Position numbers and translations under genes: made by a program. DNA of 64,000 nt, taken from positions 1-64,000 of the forward strand of contig CACZBM010000002.1 of NCBI GenBank assembly GCA_902779445.1, given 5' to 3'. The notes beneath the pieces are model-generated. The model was not told where the DNA came from, did no database searches, and saw only the letters and a list, made by a program, of their open reading frames with translations. Positions within the stretch are counted from its first letter, which is position 1. The number at the start of each line of letters is the position of its first letter. Below are positions 278-29,893 of the stretch, one piece after another. Origin of the DNA: an uncultured Lachnospiraceae bacterium. GTDB lineage: Bacteria; Bacillota; Clostridia; Lachnospirales; Lachnospiraceae.

Positions 278-1159
278 TTATGGGCGTTTAGTAAGATATT
301 CCATCATATCGTCAAAGATACGGACCGCGGTATTGTAGCCATGCTGGTAAAAGCTGTCCAGGCGGTCCAGATTGTTTTCAATACGTCCCACCGGCTTTTC
401 AGTGGGCCTGATAACGAAAACCCGGCCCTCTCTTTCGAGGCGCTCTAAAATATCAAGCTGCCTGTTATAGACTTTTGGCCGTTTTAAGCATGTGCGTACA
501 AGGGTGGGCTCATTCTTATATACCTGACGCAATATTTCATTGCTCTTTGATTTTAGTTTCTTTCTGTAGCCCATTTCCCGGGTTAAGATGACCACATGCT
601 TTTTATAGCCCTGCATTATGCTTCTGCCGTAGGGAATGGAATCTGAAAGACCGCCGTCCATATATCTCCGGCCGTCCAGATGTACAATAGGTGCAAGAAG
701 AGGCAGGGTTGATGAGGCTCTGCATATATTCAAGATACGGTCATTATCTTTGTTTTCCGTTAAATAGACGCTTTTCCCCGTATCTATGTCGGTAGCCACC
801 ATTTCGCATATTATGCCGGATGACTTGAAAGTTTCAAAATCAAAAGGAAAATATTTATAGGGAAATTCGTAAAAAGGCTTATCCATATCGTAGAAGTAGC
901 CTAATTTTATGAGATTTCCAAAGGAAATGCTCTTTAATGACTTGTCTCTTAATATAAAGGTATCTCTGGACCGTCCTATCTGCTTTGAACAGTAGTCGAG
1001 AGCATTGCATGCTCCGGCAGACACCCCGACCACATAAGGGAAATAAACATTTTTTTCCATAAAGTAGTCAAGTATGCCGGCAGTGAAAACGCCTCTGGAA
1101 CCGCCACCTTCAAGAATAAGGGCAGTATCAGAGGGAAGTGTTGCTATTGTATTATTCAT
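278..1159 (-). CDS. Patatin-like phospholipase/acyl hydrolase
   Basis: A 293-residue cytoplasmic serine hydrolase of the patatin family, expected to cleave acyl chains from lipids with a Ser-Asp dyad. Visible motifs are the glycine-rich oxyanion loop GGGSRG near residue 18, the nucleophile elbow GVSAG with Ser47, and the DGG motif carrying the catalytic Asp near residue 168. No signal peptide or membrane segment is seen. Length fits the bacterial patatin/YjjU-like group. The ATG overlaps the end of the sigma-like gene upstream by 8 bp and has a GAAGGA ribosome binding site, so it is the last gene of a five-gene operon. The substrate cannot be read from sequence. Confidence 0.92.
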   Translation of the reverse strand: MNNTIATLPSDTALILEGGGSRGVFTAGILDYFMEKNVYFPYVVGVSAGACNALDYCSKQIGRSRDTFILRDKSLKSISFGNLIKLGYFYDMDKPFYEFPYKYFPFDFETFKSSGIICEMVATDIDTGKSVYLTENKDNDRILNICRASSTLPLLAPIVHLDGRRYMDGGLSDSIPYGRSIMQGYKKHVVILTREMGYRKKLKSKSNEILRQVYKNEPTLVRTCLKRPKVYNRQLDILERLEREGRVFVIRPTEKPVGRIENNLDRLDSFYQHGYNTAVRIFDDMMEYLTKRP

Positions 1160-1898
1160 ATTTTATTCCTTCTATTGCGTTACCGGTAAATTTAAGCGCA
1201 TCCTCTATCTCGGAAACGCTGAATTCGCTGTTTTCAGCAAGTTCCTCTATAGTCAGATCGCGTTTCAGGTCATTTGAGAGTTCGGAAGCTATTTCGTTTA
1301 TCTTATTAATGTTTTCAAGGATCCTGTCTATCTCATTTTTAAGATCCTGGTCATTTCTGATGGCAGCGTCCATGGAGTCCATTATGGTCTTTCCGATAAG
1401 GCCTTCAGCCTCTTCCACGCTTTCAACGGTTCCAAGGAGGTCTATTGCCATGATGAGACCTATATTTCCTTCTCCGATAAGATCTTCAAGTCTCATGCCA
1501 TGATACACATAGAGCTTCGCGATATCTACAACATCAGAAAGATGTATGTTGATAAGCTTCTGCTTGGCTTCAGCATCATCATCCTCCATTACGGCTCTGT
1601 AGATCTCAGATATTTCTTTATCCGGGTATTTAGGAAGGCTCTTGATCTCCTCCAGGTAGAACTCAAGATAATTTCCGTCTTCATCAGAAAGGGGCAGATC
1701 ATCATCTTCTGCGCCCTCCCATTCTTCAAAACTAATATGCAGTTCTTTTAGGTAATCCCGTGTAAGCCTGTCCTGTTCTTCCGTGAGATTTAAGGGCTCA
1801 AAGAGCCTCCTATATTCCTCCTCGGATAGATGGTTCTTACCTTCATGGGCAAGTCTTACTGCCCGGTCTAAAGTGTTTTTATACTCTTTCTGGTCCAT
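1152..1898 (-). CDS. Degenerate sigma-70-like protein lacking region 4
   Basis: A 248-residue protein. Residues 80-112 resemble sigma region 1.2 (FYLEEIKSLPKYPDKE). Residues 112-155 resemble regions 2.1-2.2, including DLIGEGNIGLIMAID, the helix that binds the core RNA polymerase clamp. The aromatic-rich 2.3/2.4 segment that melts and reads the -10 element is replaced by an acidic stretch (residues 155-180). Residues 213-243 resemble region 3 (DLTIEELAENSEFSVSEIEDAL). No region 4 follows. From the family one would predict RNA polymerase binding without normal promoter reading, so it may be a modulator or decoy; this is inference. It starts at an ATG with a GGAG site and sits between a GGDEF gene and the patatin gene in one operon. 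Confidence 0.72.
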   Translation of the reverse strand: MDQKEYKNTLDRAVRLAHEGKNHLSEEEYRRLFEPLNLTEEQDRLTRDYLKELHISFEEWEGAEDDDLPLSDEDGNYLEFYLEEIKSLPKYPDKEISEIYRAVMEDDDAEAKQKLINIHLSDVVDIAKLYVYHGMRLEDLIGEGNIGLIMAIDLLGTVESVEEAEGLIGKTIMDSMDAAIRNDQDLKNEIDRILENINKINEIASELSNDLKRDLTIEELAENSEFSVSEIEDALKFTGNAIEGIKYE

Positions 1899-1908
1899 AT
1901 TAACTCCG

Positions 1909-2385
1909 TTAAAGCTTTACGTCGTTTCCTCCCATCTCCTTTACCAGATAGCACTTCTGTACTGCCCTGTAATAGTTGGTCTTAAATGTATCCTCGTGTC
2001 TTATCTTTACAAGACCCACTGAAACGGTGACCGGAGTTTCAGCCTTTACTCTTTCCGTAAACTGTTGAAGGAGCTTTAAGCTGTCTTCCGGAGTGCTGCG
2101 TAGTATTATAACAAATTCATCTCCACCCCATCGGAGTATCTCTCCTTCTTTCCCGAGGAGTTCCTCATAAATATCTATGATATCGAGGATCGCTTTATCT
2201 CCGTCGATCATTTCATTGGCGGCTTTGAAGTGATCAATATCAAATACCCCCATGATCTTCATGTCCTTATTTCTAACAGGACCCAGTTCACCATAGGTCT
2301 GATGGAAATAATCCCGGTTTTTTAATCCTGTGAGCCTGTCTTTTAATGACTTTTCAGGCGGGGTTTTCTTACGAAATATACTCAT
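1909..2385 (-). CDS. Small stand-alone GGDEF-domain protein
   Basis: 158 residues, almost entirely one GGDEF domain, the diguanylate cyclase fold that makes cyclic di-GMP from two GTP. The signature RWGGDEFVI is intact, as is the metal-binding FDIDHFK loop upstream and the NRDYF segment at the start of the fold. The RxxD inhibitory site five residues before GGDEF is absent, so product feedback is not expected. There is no sensor or membrane part, and the domain is slightly short at the C-terminus. Its ATG lies inside the end of the upstream Cache-GGDEF gene (17-bp overlap) with an AGGAG site, suggesting translational coupling. It might work with that partner or only bind nucleotide. Confidence 0.88.
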   Translation of the reverse strand: MSIFRKKTPPEKSLKDRLTGLKNRDYFHQTYGELGPVRNKDMKIMGVFDIDHFKAANEMIDGDKAILDIIDIYEELLGKEGEILRWGGDEFVIILRSTPEDSLKLLQQFTERVKAETPVTVSVGLVKIRHEDTFKTNYYRAVQKCYLVKEMGGNDVKL

Positions 2386-4276
2386 CTCCTATACTCCTGT
2401 CATCATTCATATAATAGGTGGCATGATTTCCTTTTATCCGCTTACTCTCATAGGTGCATTTATCAGCCATTTTATAGAGCTCTTCAAAAGTAAAGTTGTC
2501 GTTTGGAGTATAGAAAGCAATACCAACGCTGACTGAGATCTTATGACCTTTAAGCTCCGGAATACTGATCCTGTCAATCTGCTTTAAGAACCGGTTTACG
2601 ATTATCTCTCCGCCTTCTTTATTCAAGACAAGCGGTGCATAGGCTGCGAATTCATCACCGCCGAGACGCATGATAATATCATTATTTCTGAAGGTGCGCT
2701 TCATGCAGTCTGCAATGGCGATAAGTACCTTATCTCCGATATCATGGCCGTAATTATCATTTATGGATTTGAATTTATCCACATCAAGGACTATGAACAT
2801 ACCACCGTCACCGGTAAGAAGCTGCTGCTTAACCTTATTTTCTCCGCTTCCGCGGTTATTGATGTCGGTCATCCTGTCGGTTTCAGAGATATAGAGAAGT
2901 CTATCACGGCTCCTCTTTTCCTTATCTATAACCTCCACCATGAAGAGTACACTCTTTAAGTTTCCGTCAGGATCTCTGTCTGCTGTAATAAATCTCGCAC
3001 GGTTCCATACCTTTTCGATATTCAGGAATTCAAGGGTAACCGTATTATTATTCTTCAGTCTTCTGTCCAGTGTATCAAGATTTGTGAAGTCCAGAAATTC
3101 CTGTCTGGTTCTTTCGTCTGCCCTCAGATTGGCGATATTCTTAAACATCTTTCTGGCTTCTGTCCTGTTATCGCTCACTAGATTAGAAATCTTTTCCGAG
3201 AAACAGTTGATCTCTTCGAAAGTATCATCTTTTATATTGATGTTGTACATACACACGTAGATCGCGGAAATTGAATTTAGCTCGATAACATAGTTCTCTG
3301 CTTCCATCCTTCTTTTAGAGATCATGATCAAAAGGAAAAAGATGATAAGAGTTCCGATAAGACCTATCATCAGGCTGTCTCTTGAAGCAGTAAACAGGGC
3401 CGAGAGAGTCTTACCCTCATCGGTTACGGATACAACATACCATCCGCCTCCCATGTCATGGGTATAAACAAGCTCGTTATAGCCATTATTCTTAACCGAA
3501 AATTCTTTTTTACCCTCTATCAGGAAATTATAGGCAATGGATCTCTGGGGTTCTTCGTTACTGTGGAGATAATTCTTGCCTGTTTCAGTAAAAACAGTAT
3601 GTGTTATGACTTCGCCTTCGTCATTTAATATAAATACATTACCTGAACCACTTTCATTTACAAGAGATTCTGTAATGCTCTGCAGGCCGTCCATCTTAAC
3701 GTCTATAGCCATAACGCTCTGTCCGTCTGATAAAAGCTTTGCTATGGTCATAGTCCGTTCTCCCGACATTTTATCTGTATAGGGAGTTACATATACCATT
3801 TTCCCGCCTCCTGCGAGGCCTGTTAAGTACCAGGGTCTTGCGGTCGGGACATAATCTTCGGTTGGTATCCAGCCTATACCGGACATATATTCACCGTGAA
3901 TAAAACCATAAACTCCTTCGGTATCCATTTCCTGGGTGGTCTTTATAAACTGGGTCTCACGGACAAAATAATCAAGGATCTGCTCATTGGAAGCGTTTGA
4001 ACGGAAAAGATCCTCTACGTTATAGGAAGCATGTTCCATTATCTTGCAAGCGGGCTGAAGGTAATCATCAAGTTCCGATGAATACTGTAAAAGAGTTGCC
4101 TCTGTCTGATATTCGATATTCTTTGAAGTGATGGAATAATTATATCTGAAATTAAGGAAAATGATACAGATATAAACCAAAGGCAACAGGAAAAAGAGGA
4201 GCAAATAGGACTTGCTCATTCTGCTGAAGAACTCTTTTGCACTTATCCTCGTCTTTATCTTTTTCCGATTATCCAC
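2369..4276 (-). CDS. Membrane diguanylate cyclase, Cache-PAS-like-GGDEF
   Basis: 635 residues. An N-terminal membrane helix (about residues 20-42) is followed by an extracellular Cache-type ligand domain (about 45-290, with RPWYLTG and the FILNDEGEVITHT strand), a second helix (about 300-320), a PAS-like region and a GGDEF domain. The GGDEF motif near residue 540 is intact and preceded by an RNND inhibitory site, so an active, feedback-controlled cyclase making cyclic di-GMP in response to an outside ligand is predicted. The start is a GTG with a GAGG site six bases upstream. It is the second gene of the operon, 36 bp after the rhomboid-like gene. Confidence 0.92.
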   Translation of the reverse strand: MDNRKKIKTRISAKEFFSRMSKSYLLLFFLLPLVYICIIFLNFRYNYSITSKNIEYQTEATLLQYSSELDDYLQPACKIMEHASYNVEDLFRSNASNEQILDYFVRETQFIKTTQEMDTEGVYGFIHGEYMSGIGWIPTEDYVPTARPWYLTGLAGGGKMVYVTPYTDKMSGERTMTIAKLLSDGQSVMAIDVKMDGLQSITESLVNESGSGNVFILNDEGEVITHTVFTETGKNYLHSNEEPQRSIAYNFLIEGKKEFSVKNNGYNELVYTHDMGGGWYVVSVTDEGKTLSALFTASRDSLMIGLIGTLIIFFLLIMISKRRMEAENYVIELNSISAIYVCMYNINIKDDTFEEINCFSEKISNLVSDNRTEARKMFKNIANLRADERTRQEFLDFTNLDTLDRRLKNNNTVTLEFLNIEKVWNRARFITADRDPDGNLKSVLFMVEVIDKEKRSRDRLLYISETDRMTDINNRGSGENKVKQQLLTGDGGMFIVLDVDKFKSINDNYGHDIGDKVLIAIADCMKRTFRNNDIIMRLGGDEFAAYAPLVLNKEGGEIIVNRFLKQIDRISIPELKGHKISVSVGIAFYTPNDNFTFEELYKMADKCTYESKRIKGNHATYYMNDDRSIGDEYIS

Positions 4277-4312: not shown

Positions 4313-5188
4313 TCATATATGGCTGTGATTATTTATGTGTTCGCTGCAATATTCGTAATTTCCGTTGCATTTTGAACAGAATCTGAATTCCAGTTCCGGA
4401 TTTGTAAGCTCTGTCCTTCCGCAAACAGCGCATTTATGCTTTGCTATGGCATTCTTCCCGCCCTGTACGGTATGGAATCTGCTCCGCATATCGTTATTAA
4501 CAGCCTTCTTATAAGCGGCTCTCCTGTGCATCTCGTGCGGAGAGAATCTCCGGAGATTTCTGGTACTTAAGAAGAATACAAGGAAATTAAGGAGTGAAAC
4601 AAGAATAACTCCTTTTCCGTACCAGGGGCTCTGCAGAAACTGCCAGAGTATCAGTACTCCGTCCAGGATAGCGAGATACTTTATCTTTAAGGGTATAAAG
4701 AAATACAGAAGTATCTGCATATCCGGGTAACTTGCTGCAAATGCGAAAAAGAGGGACATGTTAACGAAGTATGTGGATACCCAGGTACTGAGCGAGTAGC
4801 CAAAGGTATCAACGGGATAGCCGAACATCCTTATTCCGATAAAATATATGATAACGGATCCTATAAAGGTAAAGATGTATCCCATGAAGATATATACGTT
4901 ATATCTGAAATCCCCCCATGTTACTTCCAGAGAACGCCCTATCTGGAAATAGAAAAATATCATAATGATTGTAAATATATTAAATGATGATGGAGGCATT
5001 AAGATCCAGGTAAACACTCTCCATATCTGGCCCCTCATTATGAGGTACGGGTCCAGGCCTATAAGGGGTATAAGCCCCATAAAGCTCATCAGATATCCTA
5101 TGATATATGTAAAGATCACAAAAACCGTAAGGTTTGGTACAGCGTACTTTCCAAATTTCTTTTCCAGATTATAAAGCCAGTTATTCAA
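4313..5188 (-). CDS. Rhomboid-like membrane protein with C-terminal zinc ribbon
   Basis: 291 residues from a TTG start. This start is chosen because AGAAGGA lies 7 bp upstream and because the longer reading frame to 5269 would run through the promoter at 5241-5269. Five or six membrane helices carry a rhomboid/derlin-like arrangement (GQIWRVFTWILMP, then a QIGRSLEVTWG helix end). The catalytic GxSG serine motif is not present; the corresponding helix reads GYSLSTWVS. It is therefore probably a non-proteolytic rhomboid relative. The C-terminal cytosolic tail has a CxxC-x14-CxxC zinc ribbon (CAVCGRTE and FCSKCNG) plus a further Cys and His cluster. First gene of the five-gene operon. Confidence 0.82.
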   Translation of the reverse strand: MNNWLYNLEKKFGKYAVPNLTVFVIFTYIIGYLMSFMGLIPLIGLDPYLIMRGQIWRVFTWILMPPSSFNIFTIIMIFFYFQIGRSLEVTWGDFRYNVYIFMGYIFTFIGSVIIYFIGIRMFGYPVDTFGYSLSTWVSTYFVNMSLFFAFAASYPDMQILLYFFIPLKIKYLAILDGVLILWQFLQSPWYGKGVILVSLLNFLVFFLSTRNLRRFSPHEMHRRAAYKKAVNNDMRSRFHTVQGGKNAIAKHKCAVCGRTELTNPELEFRFCSKCNGNYEYCSEHINNHSHI

Positions 5189-5240
5189 TTTAAGATCCTT
5201 CTTTATATTTTTTCTCGAATACGTATGTTTCCTCAAGGAT

Positions 5241-5269
5241 ATTATACTCTGAAATGCTGTTAAAATCAA
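5241..5269 (-). promoter_or_regulatory. SigmaA-type promoter of the rhomboid-GGDEF-patatin operon
   Basis: On the minus strand TTGATT (5269-5264), a 17-bp spacer and TATAAT (5246-5241). Predicted transcription start is near 5234, giving about 46 nt of leader before the TTG start at 5188. Confidence 0.8.
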
Positions 5270-29519: not shown

Positions 29520-29742
29520 TGAAAATCTGGCACATACAGGATTTTCTGACGCAGCACGAAACGAATCTTCTTGGTGAGCATGATTCACCAGCGCAAAACC
29601 CGCATGGATGCGGGTTTTAGCCGAAATTGAACACGGACGTGAATAGAGGCGGGCGCGTCATTCTGTGTCAACCCTTCAATGCGAACCTTAGAAGAATTCG
29701 TTGAGTTGCGAGCACGAAAAGACTGTATGTGCCAGATTTTCA
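29520..29742. repeat. Long palindromic element with 20-bp perfect arms (family C)
   Basis: TGAAAATCTGGCACATACAG at 29520-29539 and its exact complement at 29723-29742. The 183-bp interior contains an AAAACCCGCAT-GG-ATGCGGGTTTT hairpin and shorter pairs (TTGGTGA/TCACCA). Its core differs from family A. Confidence 0.82.
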
Positions 29743-29814: not shown

Positions 29815-29893
29815 AGTTAGTTAAATCTAACTTCTGTGATTCTCCTACCATACTTTTGTGCCTGCAGCCTTACCAACTGCAGGCACTTTTATA
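29815..29893 (+). ncRNA. Candidate small RNA of about 79 nt, or terminated leader
   Basis: Begins at the predicted start with an AGTTAG-TTAAAT-CTAACT hairpin (29815-29832). It ends in a textbook intrinsic terminator: GTGCCTGCAG (29858-29867), loop CCTTACCAA, CTGCAGGCAC (29877-29886), then TTTTATATT. No start codon with a ribosome binding site lies between. It could be an independent small RNA or an attenuated leader of the polymerase gene starting at 29939. Confidence 0.6.

Follow-up and report, generated by a model that had tools for sequence, protein, structure and literature searches.

Sigma-like proteins that do not read promoters are of a kind already known from PhyR, an ECF-like protein in which a receiver domain accompanies a sigma-like domain with degenerate core-binding regions (PMC8103513), and for the PhyR/NepR pair sigma mimicry is established (PMC8103513, PMC5898713). 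The SigO-RsoA system of Bacillus subtilis shows that sigma2 and sigma4 can be split between two proteins; RsoA is a stand-alone sigma2-containing protein that has no region 4 and participates with SigO in active transcription (PMC8103513). Other proteins act on the surfaces that sigma factors use: the anti-sigma protein CsfB binds sigma2, its site lying within regions 2.1-2.3 of SigE (PMC10141391), while the acidic Ocr protein of phage T7, a DNA mimic, blocks RNA polymerase (RNAP), whose cleft it contests with sigma (PMC7064336). Discussion of the idea that a broken-off copy of a cell's own sigma factor may serve as a sigma regulator has so far centred on ECF-type proteins that mimic the targets of anti-sigma factors, as PhyR does. 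The family described below points the opposite way, since its members appear to have kept the polymerase grip while promoter reading was removed, and they resemble the primary sigma factor rather than an ECF factor.

The gene in question lies in a window of 64,000 nucleotides, the whole stretch of DNA that was analysed, from an uncultured Lachnospiraceae bacterium (Table 1). Its reading frame opens with an ATG, and a GGAG-type ribosome site is located just 5′ to it. Sequence comparison identified the product as a relative of the primary sigma factor: the NCBIfam models RpoS (2e-17) and RpoD (1.4e-16) matched it with scores far under their equivalog cut-offs, the top PDB sequence match was the SigA of C. 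difficile (8e-15), and the Pfam model Sigma70_r3 passed its cut-off. Sigma70_r2 failed its cut-off (0.0036) and aligned residues 115-153 with positions 1-39 of the 71 in the profile, that is, with the 2.1-2.2 part only. Homology to sigma regions 1.1, 1.2, 2 and 3 is present, and the protein stops ahead of the sigma finger (3.2) and region 4. These matches, together with the SigA alignments, bore out the preliminary description, made from the letters alone, in which regions 1.2, 2.1-2.2 and 3 had been recognised but region 1.1 overlooked; the missing region 4 that it reported was also absent from all confirmed homologues checked, none of which carries an intact copy. No unrelated helical family gave a better match in the Pfam scan, where DUF1664 reached E 1.2 at most. 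A normal SigA of 372 aa is encoded separately in the same genome, therefore the sigma-like gene is an extra copy. A weak NCBIfam match was also found to MzaA (E 1.4e-13, 50.6 bits), a sigma-70-family protein of the MZA anti-phage system, but this score is much below the curated cut-off of 800 bits, the ordinary sigma models score ahead of it, and no MZA-like neighbours were seen at the loci examined.

Table 1. Features of the sigma-like gene, its predicted protein regions and the adjacent genes in the window
Feature	Position	Strand	Basis or remark
Patatin-like phospholipase with DUF6363, downstream gene	278..1159	(-)	First bases shared with the stop end of the sigma-like gene
Sigma-like CDS, 248 aa, subfamily A; putative promoter-blind sigma-A paralogue	1152..1898	(-)	Pfam/NCBIfam/PDB matches, homologues, dN/dS
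Regions 3.0-3.1, residues 185-239	1182..1346	(-)	Pfam Sigma70_r3, 1.1e-6; in the model, helix 2.4 continues into 3.0
Degenerate 2.3-2.4 helix, residues 155-184, acidic, KxIMDAMExxI-type motif	1347..1436	(-)	Alignment, charge
Regions 2.1-2.2, residues 108-154	1437..1577	(-)	Partial Pfam Sigma70_r2; most conserved stretch in the family
Putative beta' clamp-helix contact patch, residues 139-148, DLIGEGNIGL (SigA: DLIQEGNLGL)	1455..1484	(-)	Residue conservation, 44 members
Region 1.2, residues 74-106	1581..1679	(-)	R99 lost; Y101 kept in 41/44
Acidic linker, residues 58-73	1680..1727	(-)	Sequence; pLDDT about 59, lowest in the protein
Region 1.1-like domain, residues 1-57	1728..1898	(-)	Aligned with SigA region 1.1 by profile comparison over 57 columns, E 2.4e-18
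GGDEF-only protein, 158 aa, directly upstream	1909..2385	(-)	Local insertion; not shared across the family
635-aa protein with C-terminal GGDEF domain, upstream	2369..4276	(-)	Local insertion
Rhomboid/Derlin-like membrane protein (presumed), C-terminal Cys/His motif, usual upstream neighbour	4313..5269	(-)	No Pfam match

The ten relatives found in public genomes are 57-63% identical to the window protein and all belong to Lachnospiraceae. A match at E<=1e-20 was obtained in 76 of a sample of 397 Lachnospiraceae genomes, a count that includes at least one ordinary sigma factor (L144, G350); when eight long open frames were read, this one proved to be the genuine sigma factor and the other seven were members that lack region 4, two of them with unusual acidic or Cys/His-rich tails. 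The subfamily-B homologue L140:979-2052 (-) ends in a Cys/His-rich tail that is metal-binding in appearance, a similar and shorter tail is present in L082, and the subfamily-B-like homologue L139:908-1984 (-) is extended at its C-terminus by a long acidic stretch and lacks region 4. The order-wide search gave only full-length sigma frames outside Lachnospiraceae among the matches listed, and every member that came up in searches of the class and the phylum at E<=1e-50 belonged to Lachnospiraceae. In the tree, 49 members formed one clade (SH-aLRT 94 / bootstrap 97) adjoining but separate from the primary-sigma clade; the 40 sequences of subfamily A (99.7/99) branched from among those of subfamily B. 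The family is well conserved and under strong purifying selection, dN/dS being 0.006-0.03 between close homologue pairs; on these values and the open frames, a pseudogene or a decaying sigma gene was rejected. A mobile-element origin was also rejected, as phage and plasmid records held no close match and their hits were mostly ordinary sigma factors of <60% identity. An unannotated faecal contig, MT837372.1, matched over 98% at 27.5%. No described family fits these proteins in the openly licensed papers or model libraries searched, and the family thus appears to be undescribed.

The order of the regions, from 1.1 through the acidic linker, 1.2 and 2.1-2.2 to 3.0-3.1, is that of the group 1 factors SigA/RpoD. 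At E<=0.1, Pfam detected Sigma70_r3 in all 44 aligned members, Sigma70_r2 in 41 and Sigma70_r1_1 in 26 (best 8e-8), and no region-4 model was among the 25 Pfam families listed for these 44 proteins. The AlphaFold2 model of the window protein (pLDDT 91.3) likewise predicts a sigma2 fold, as its residues 72-184 were superimposed by VIA-align on E. coli sigma70 (7xya, 7n4e) with 2.5-2.7 A over 107-109 residues. Over the whole 72-239 part the similarity to sigma70 was still evident (Z 14-15), yet the rmsd rose to about 10 A, therefore the sigma3 part is placed differently in the model. Helices 2.4 and 3.0, unlike in SigA, are predicted to be fused into a single helix (residues 161-211), and the SigA junction sequence TIRIPVH is lost in the family (P453 0/44, H455 1/44).

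Sigma70 touches the beta' coiled coil through four positions, 403, 406, 407 and 409 (E. coli numbering, used throughout) (PMC8321222); F427, Y430, W433 and W434 form the pocket for -11A, Q437 and T440 read -12, and H455 and E458 contact the extended -10 element (PMC10911233). The two sets of residues had opposite fates in the 44 members, with 133 of 176 core-contact cells retained versus 19 of 396 DNA-contact cells, bearing in mind that these and the following counts come from related sequences and not from independent events. The patch was conserved almost without exception (D403 44/44, L404 44/44, E407 42/44, G408 43/44, N409 43/44, L412 41/44), and three of the four beta'-contact positions, D403, E407 and N409, were near-invariant across 49 homologues and are all present in the window protein. 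The fourth, 406, separated the subfamilies: it was Gly in 40 and Gln in 4 of the 44 members, and in the enlarged set all 40 proteins of subfamily A, the window protein among them, had Gly there and all 9 of subfamily B had Gln. All four contacts are intact in eight of the nine subfamily-B proteins, N409 being replaced by Ser in the ninth. The DNA-contact residues were nearly all gone (F427 0/44, Y430 2/44, W433 1/44, W434 0/44, Q437 0/44, T440 0/44, H455 1/44); E458 is the sole extended -10, -11A or -12 position retained to any extent (14/44), and R99, R441 and R451 are likewise almost never retained in the family alignment. The 2.3-2.4 segment, noted earlier as acidic, indeed carries a net charge of -5 in the window protein and -5.7 on average in the family, compared with +2.8 in SigA. 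In subfamily A the replacements were largely uniform (K426 to E/D in 39/40, Q437 to D/E in 32/40, T440 to E/D in 39/40, R436 to M in 39/40), so that the old -10 face is mostly acidic and bears a new conserved motif, KxIMDAMExxI. The earlier statement that the promoter-reading parts are lost therefore holds for the DNA-contact residues but not for the segment itself, which is still there as a confidently predicted helix with its own conserved motif.

Because the beta'-contact residues are kept while the DNA-contact residues are lost, the sigma2 fold is predicted to persist and purifying selection is strong, we infer a core-binding-competent, promoter-blind sigma relative. In the reading we prefer, at a probability of about 0.5, the protein, a paralogue of sigma A blind to promoters, would bind the clamp helices of beta' and counteract sigma A; core binding through the 2.2 patch is deduced from the residue pattern, and sigma antagonism is one step further removed. 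The conserved sigma2.2 patch would dock the protein on the clamp helices of RNAP, and region 1.1 and the acidic linker would sit near the main cleft. The -10 element would be neither recognised nor melted, the 2.3-2.4 residues being lost and made acidic, no sigma finger would be placed without 3.2, and no -35 element would be read without region 4. On core that is free or has just been released, the protein would fill the sigma2 site and so lower housekeeping initiation or shift the sigma balance. The possible effect is the only likeness to T7 Ocr, which is unrelated to the sigma-like protein. The exchange of Q406 for Gly throughout subfamily A could weaken or change the putative core binding, and without 3.2 and region 4 such binding is expected to be weaker than that of sigma A, hence competition would need high abundance or a special target state.

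A similar residue pattern would be expected if the protein acted at the same site during elongation or titrated an anti-sigma factor that binds sigma2. The beta' clamp-helix site is common to sigma2 and NusG/RfaH, and a factor sitting on the clamp helices of elongating RNAP could alter pausing, termination or coupling without touching DNA, which would account for the retention of the clamp-helix patch alone after the DNA contacts had gone. Among the close structural matches is the sigma70 of a paused elongation complex (7n4e; Z 13.9, 109 residues at 2.7 A), a match that reflects sigma2 in general. As the cleft holds DNA during elongation, it is not evident where region 1.1 would fit on such a complex, and we regard this role as unlikely. 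In the titration scheme, with its PhyR-like logic, the protein would mimic sigma A toward a sigma-A-directed anti-sigma factor and thereby free sigma A. An anti-sigma protein gripping the same 2.1-2.2 surface, as the CsfB precedent illustrates, could also maintain selection on the patch residues, and a protein partner is suggested by the new KxIMDAMExxI face. However, the core-RNAP interaction regions are degenerate in PhyR, the opposite of the pattern in the sigma-like family; Pfam scans detected no receiver domain in the window protein or its homologues, no sensor domain is attached to it, and at the loci examined in either subfamily none of the regular neighbours is an anti-sigma gene, although one may lie elsewhere in the genome. 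Titration thus seems rather improbable to us. In a third scheme the protein would be one half of a two-subunit sigma factor of the SigO-RsoA type, with a partner that supplies region 4 and perhaps -10 reading. RsoA shows that such a division can work, and it shares with the window protein a stand-alone sigma2 part, but the window protein has lost the residues for -10 reading and its own genome yielded no SigO-like partner: once ORFs that also encode region 2 are set aside, the clear region-4 matches there come down to a single 128-aa protein, which we take to be YlxM-like and not SigO-like. For these reasons this scheme is very hard to sustain.

The surroundings of the gene were compared among the loci of its relatives. 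The preliminary description had placed it in a cyclic di-GMP operon, and two GGDEF genes do lie directly upstream, the nearer of which encodes a very small protein with an intact GGDEF motif. They are, however, an insertion particular to the window and missing from the loci of its relatives, including several of the closest, thus a functional link to cyclic di-GMP is not supported and this setting was discarded. Assignment of the upstream membrane protein as rhomboid/Derlin-like is our own reading of its sequence, which has the Cys/His motif HKCAxCGRTE...FRFCSKC...; its gene occurs in 379 of 397 Lachnospiraceae genomes, mostly ones without the sigma-like gene, therefore it is not specific to the latter, and its candidacy as a dedicated partner is weakened. 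The usual order in subfamily A is the rhomboid-like gene, the sigma-like gene, c5 (about 140 aa), an M16-type peptidase gene, era and recO, where some names are presumptive and come from our reading of the sequences. The patatin gene is confined to the close clade of the window (8 of the loci examined), where it replaces c5.

The c5 gene, unlike the rhomboid-like one, is specific to the sigma-like gene: it was found in 36 of 290 genomes, 34 of which also carry the sigma-like gene (Fisher p 3e-26, with kinship ignored). This association is what could be expected if the sigma fold had been recruited to a task that has nothing to do with RNAP, such as scaffolding c5. Yet the clade of the window, which has no c5, still keeps the sigma-like protein with its 2.2 patch, and c5 is not consistent in subfamily B; we consider this explanation improbable. 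The c5 product, encoded outside the window (L055:5586-5999 (-) and 28 other loci), belongs to an unnamed family of ~140 aa; its AlphaFold2 model has a pLDDT of 96, and in the PDB it most resembles the FAD subunits of CO dehydrogenase/xanthine dehydrogenase-type enzymes (E 3.5e-4, TM about 0.6 of query).

Neighbours vary in subfamily B, where a PucR-like regulator and an S41 peptidase are upstream in 9 of 25 loci and rho is one to three genes downstream in five. The proximity of rho would suit the elongation role discussed above, but the linkage is not general and is missing from subfamily A. That the protein persists while its neighbours change between the subfamilies would be expected if its partner were encoded elsewhere in the genome, RNAP being such a candidate. 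On a wider scale, we tentatively suggest, at somewhat less than even odds, that these proteins are Lachnospiraceae-wide regulators derived from the primary sigma factor that work at the beta' clamp helices without reading DNA, either as sigma decoys or as elongation or hibernation factors, with region 1.1 and the acidic former -10 face possibly active in the cleft. The family may serve as a transcriptional decoy or brake, and should binding to RNAP be confirmed, bacteria abundant in gut and rumen would possess a sigma antagonist of their own or an RNAP factor that derives from sigma. It would also offer a natural separation-of-function variant for the role of sigma2 on RNAP without DNA contacts. 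Elsewhere in the window, at 29547-29713 (+), a TwoAYGGAY RNA (Rfam RF01731, 66 bits) was detected upstream of an ORF at 29858.
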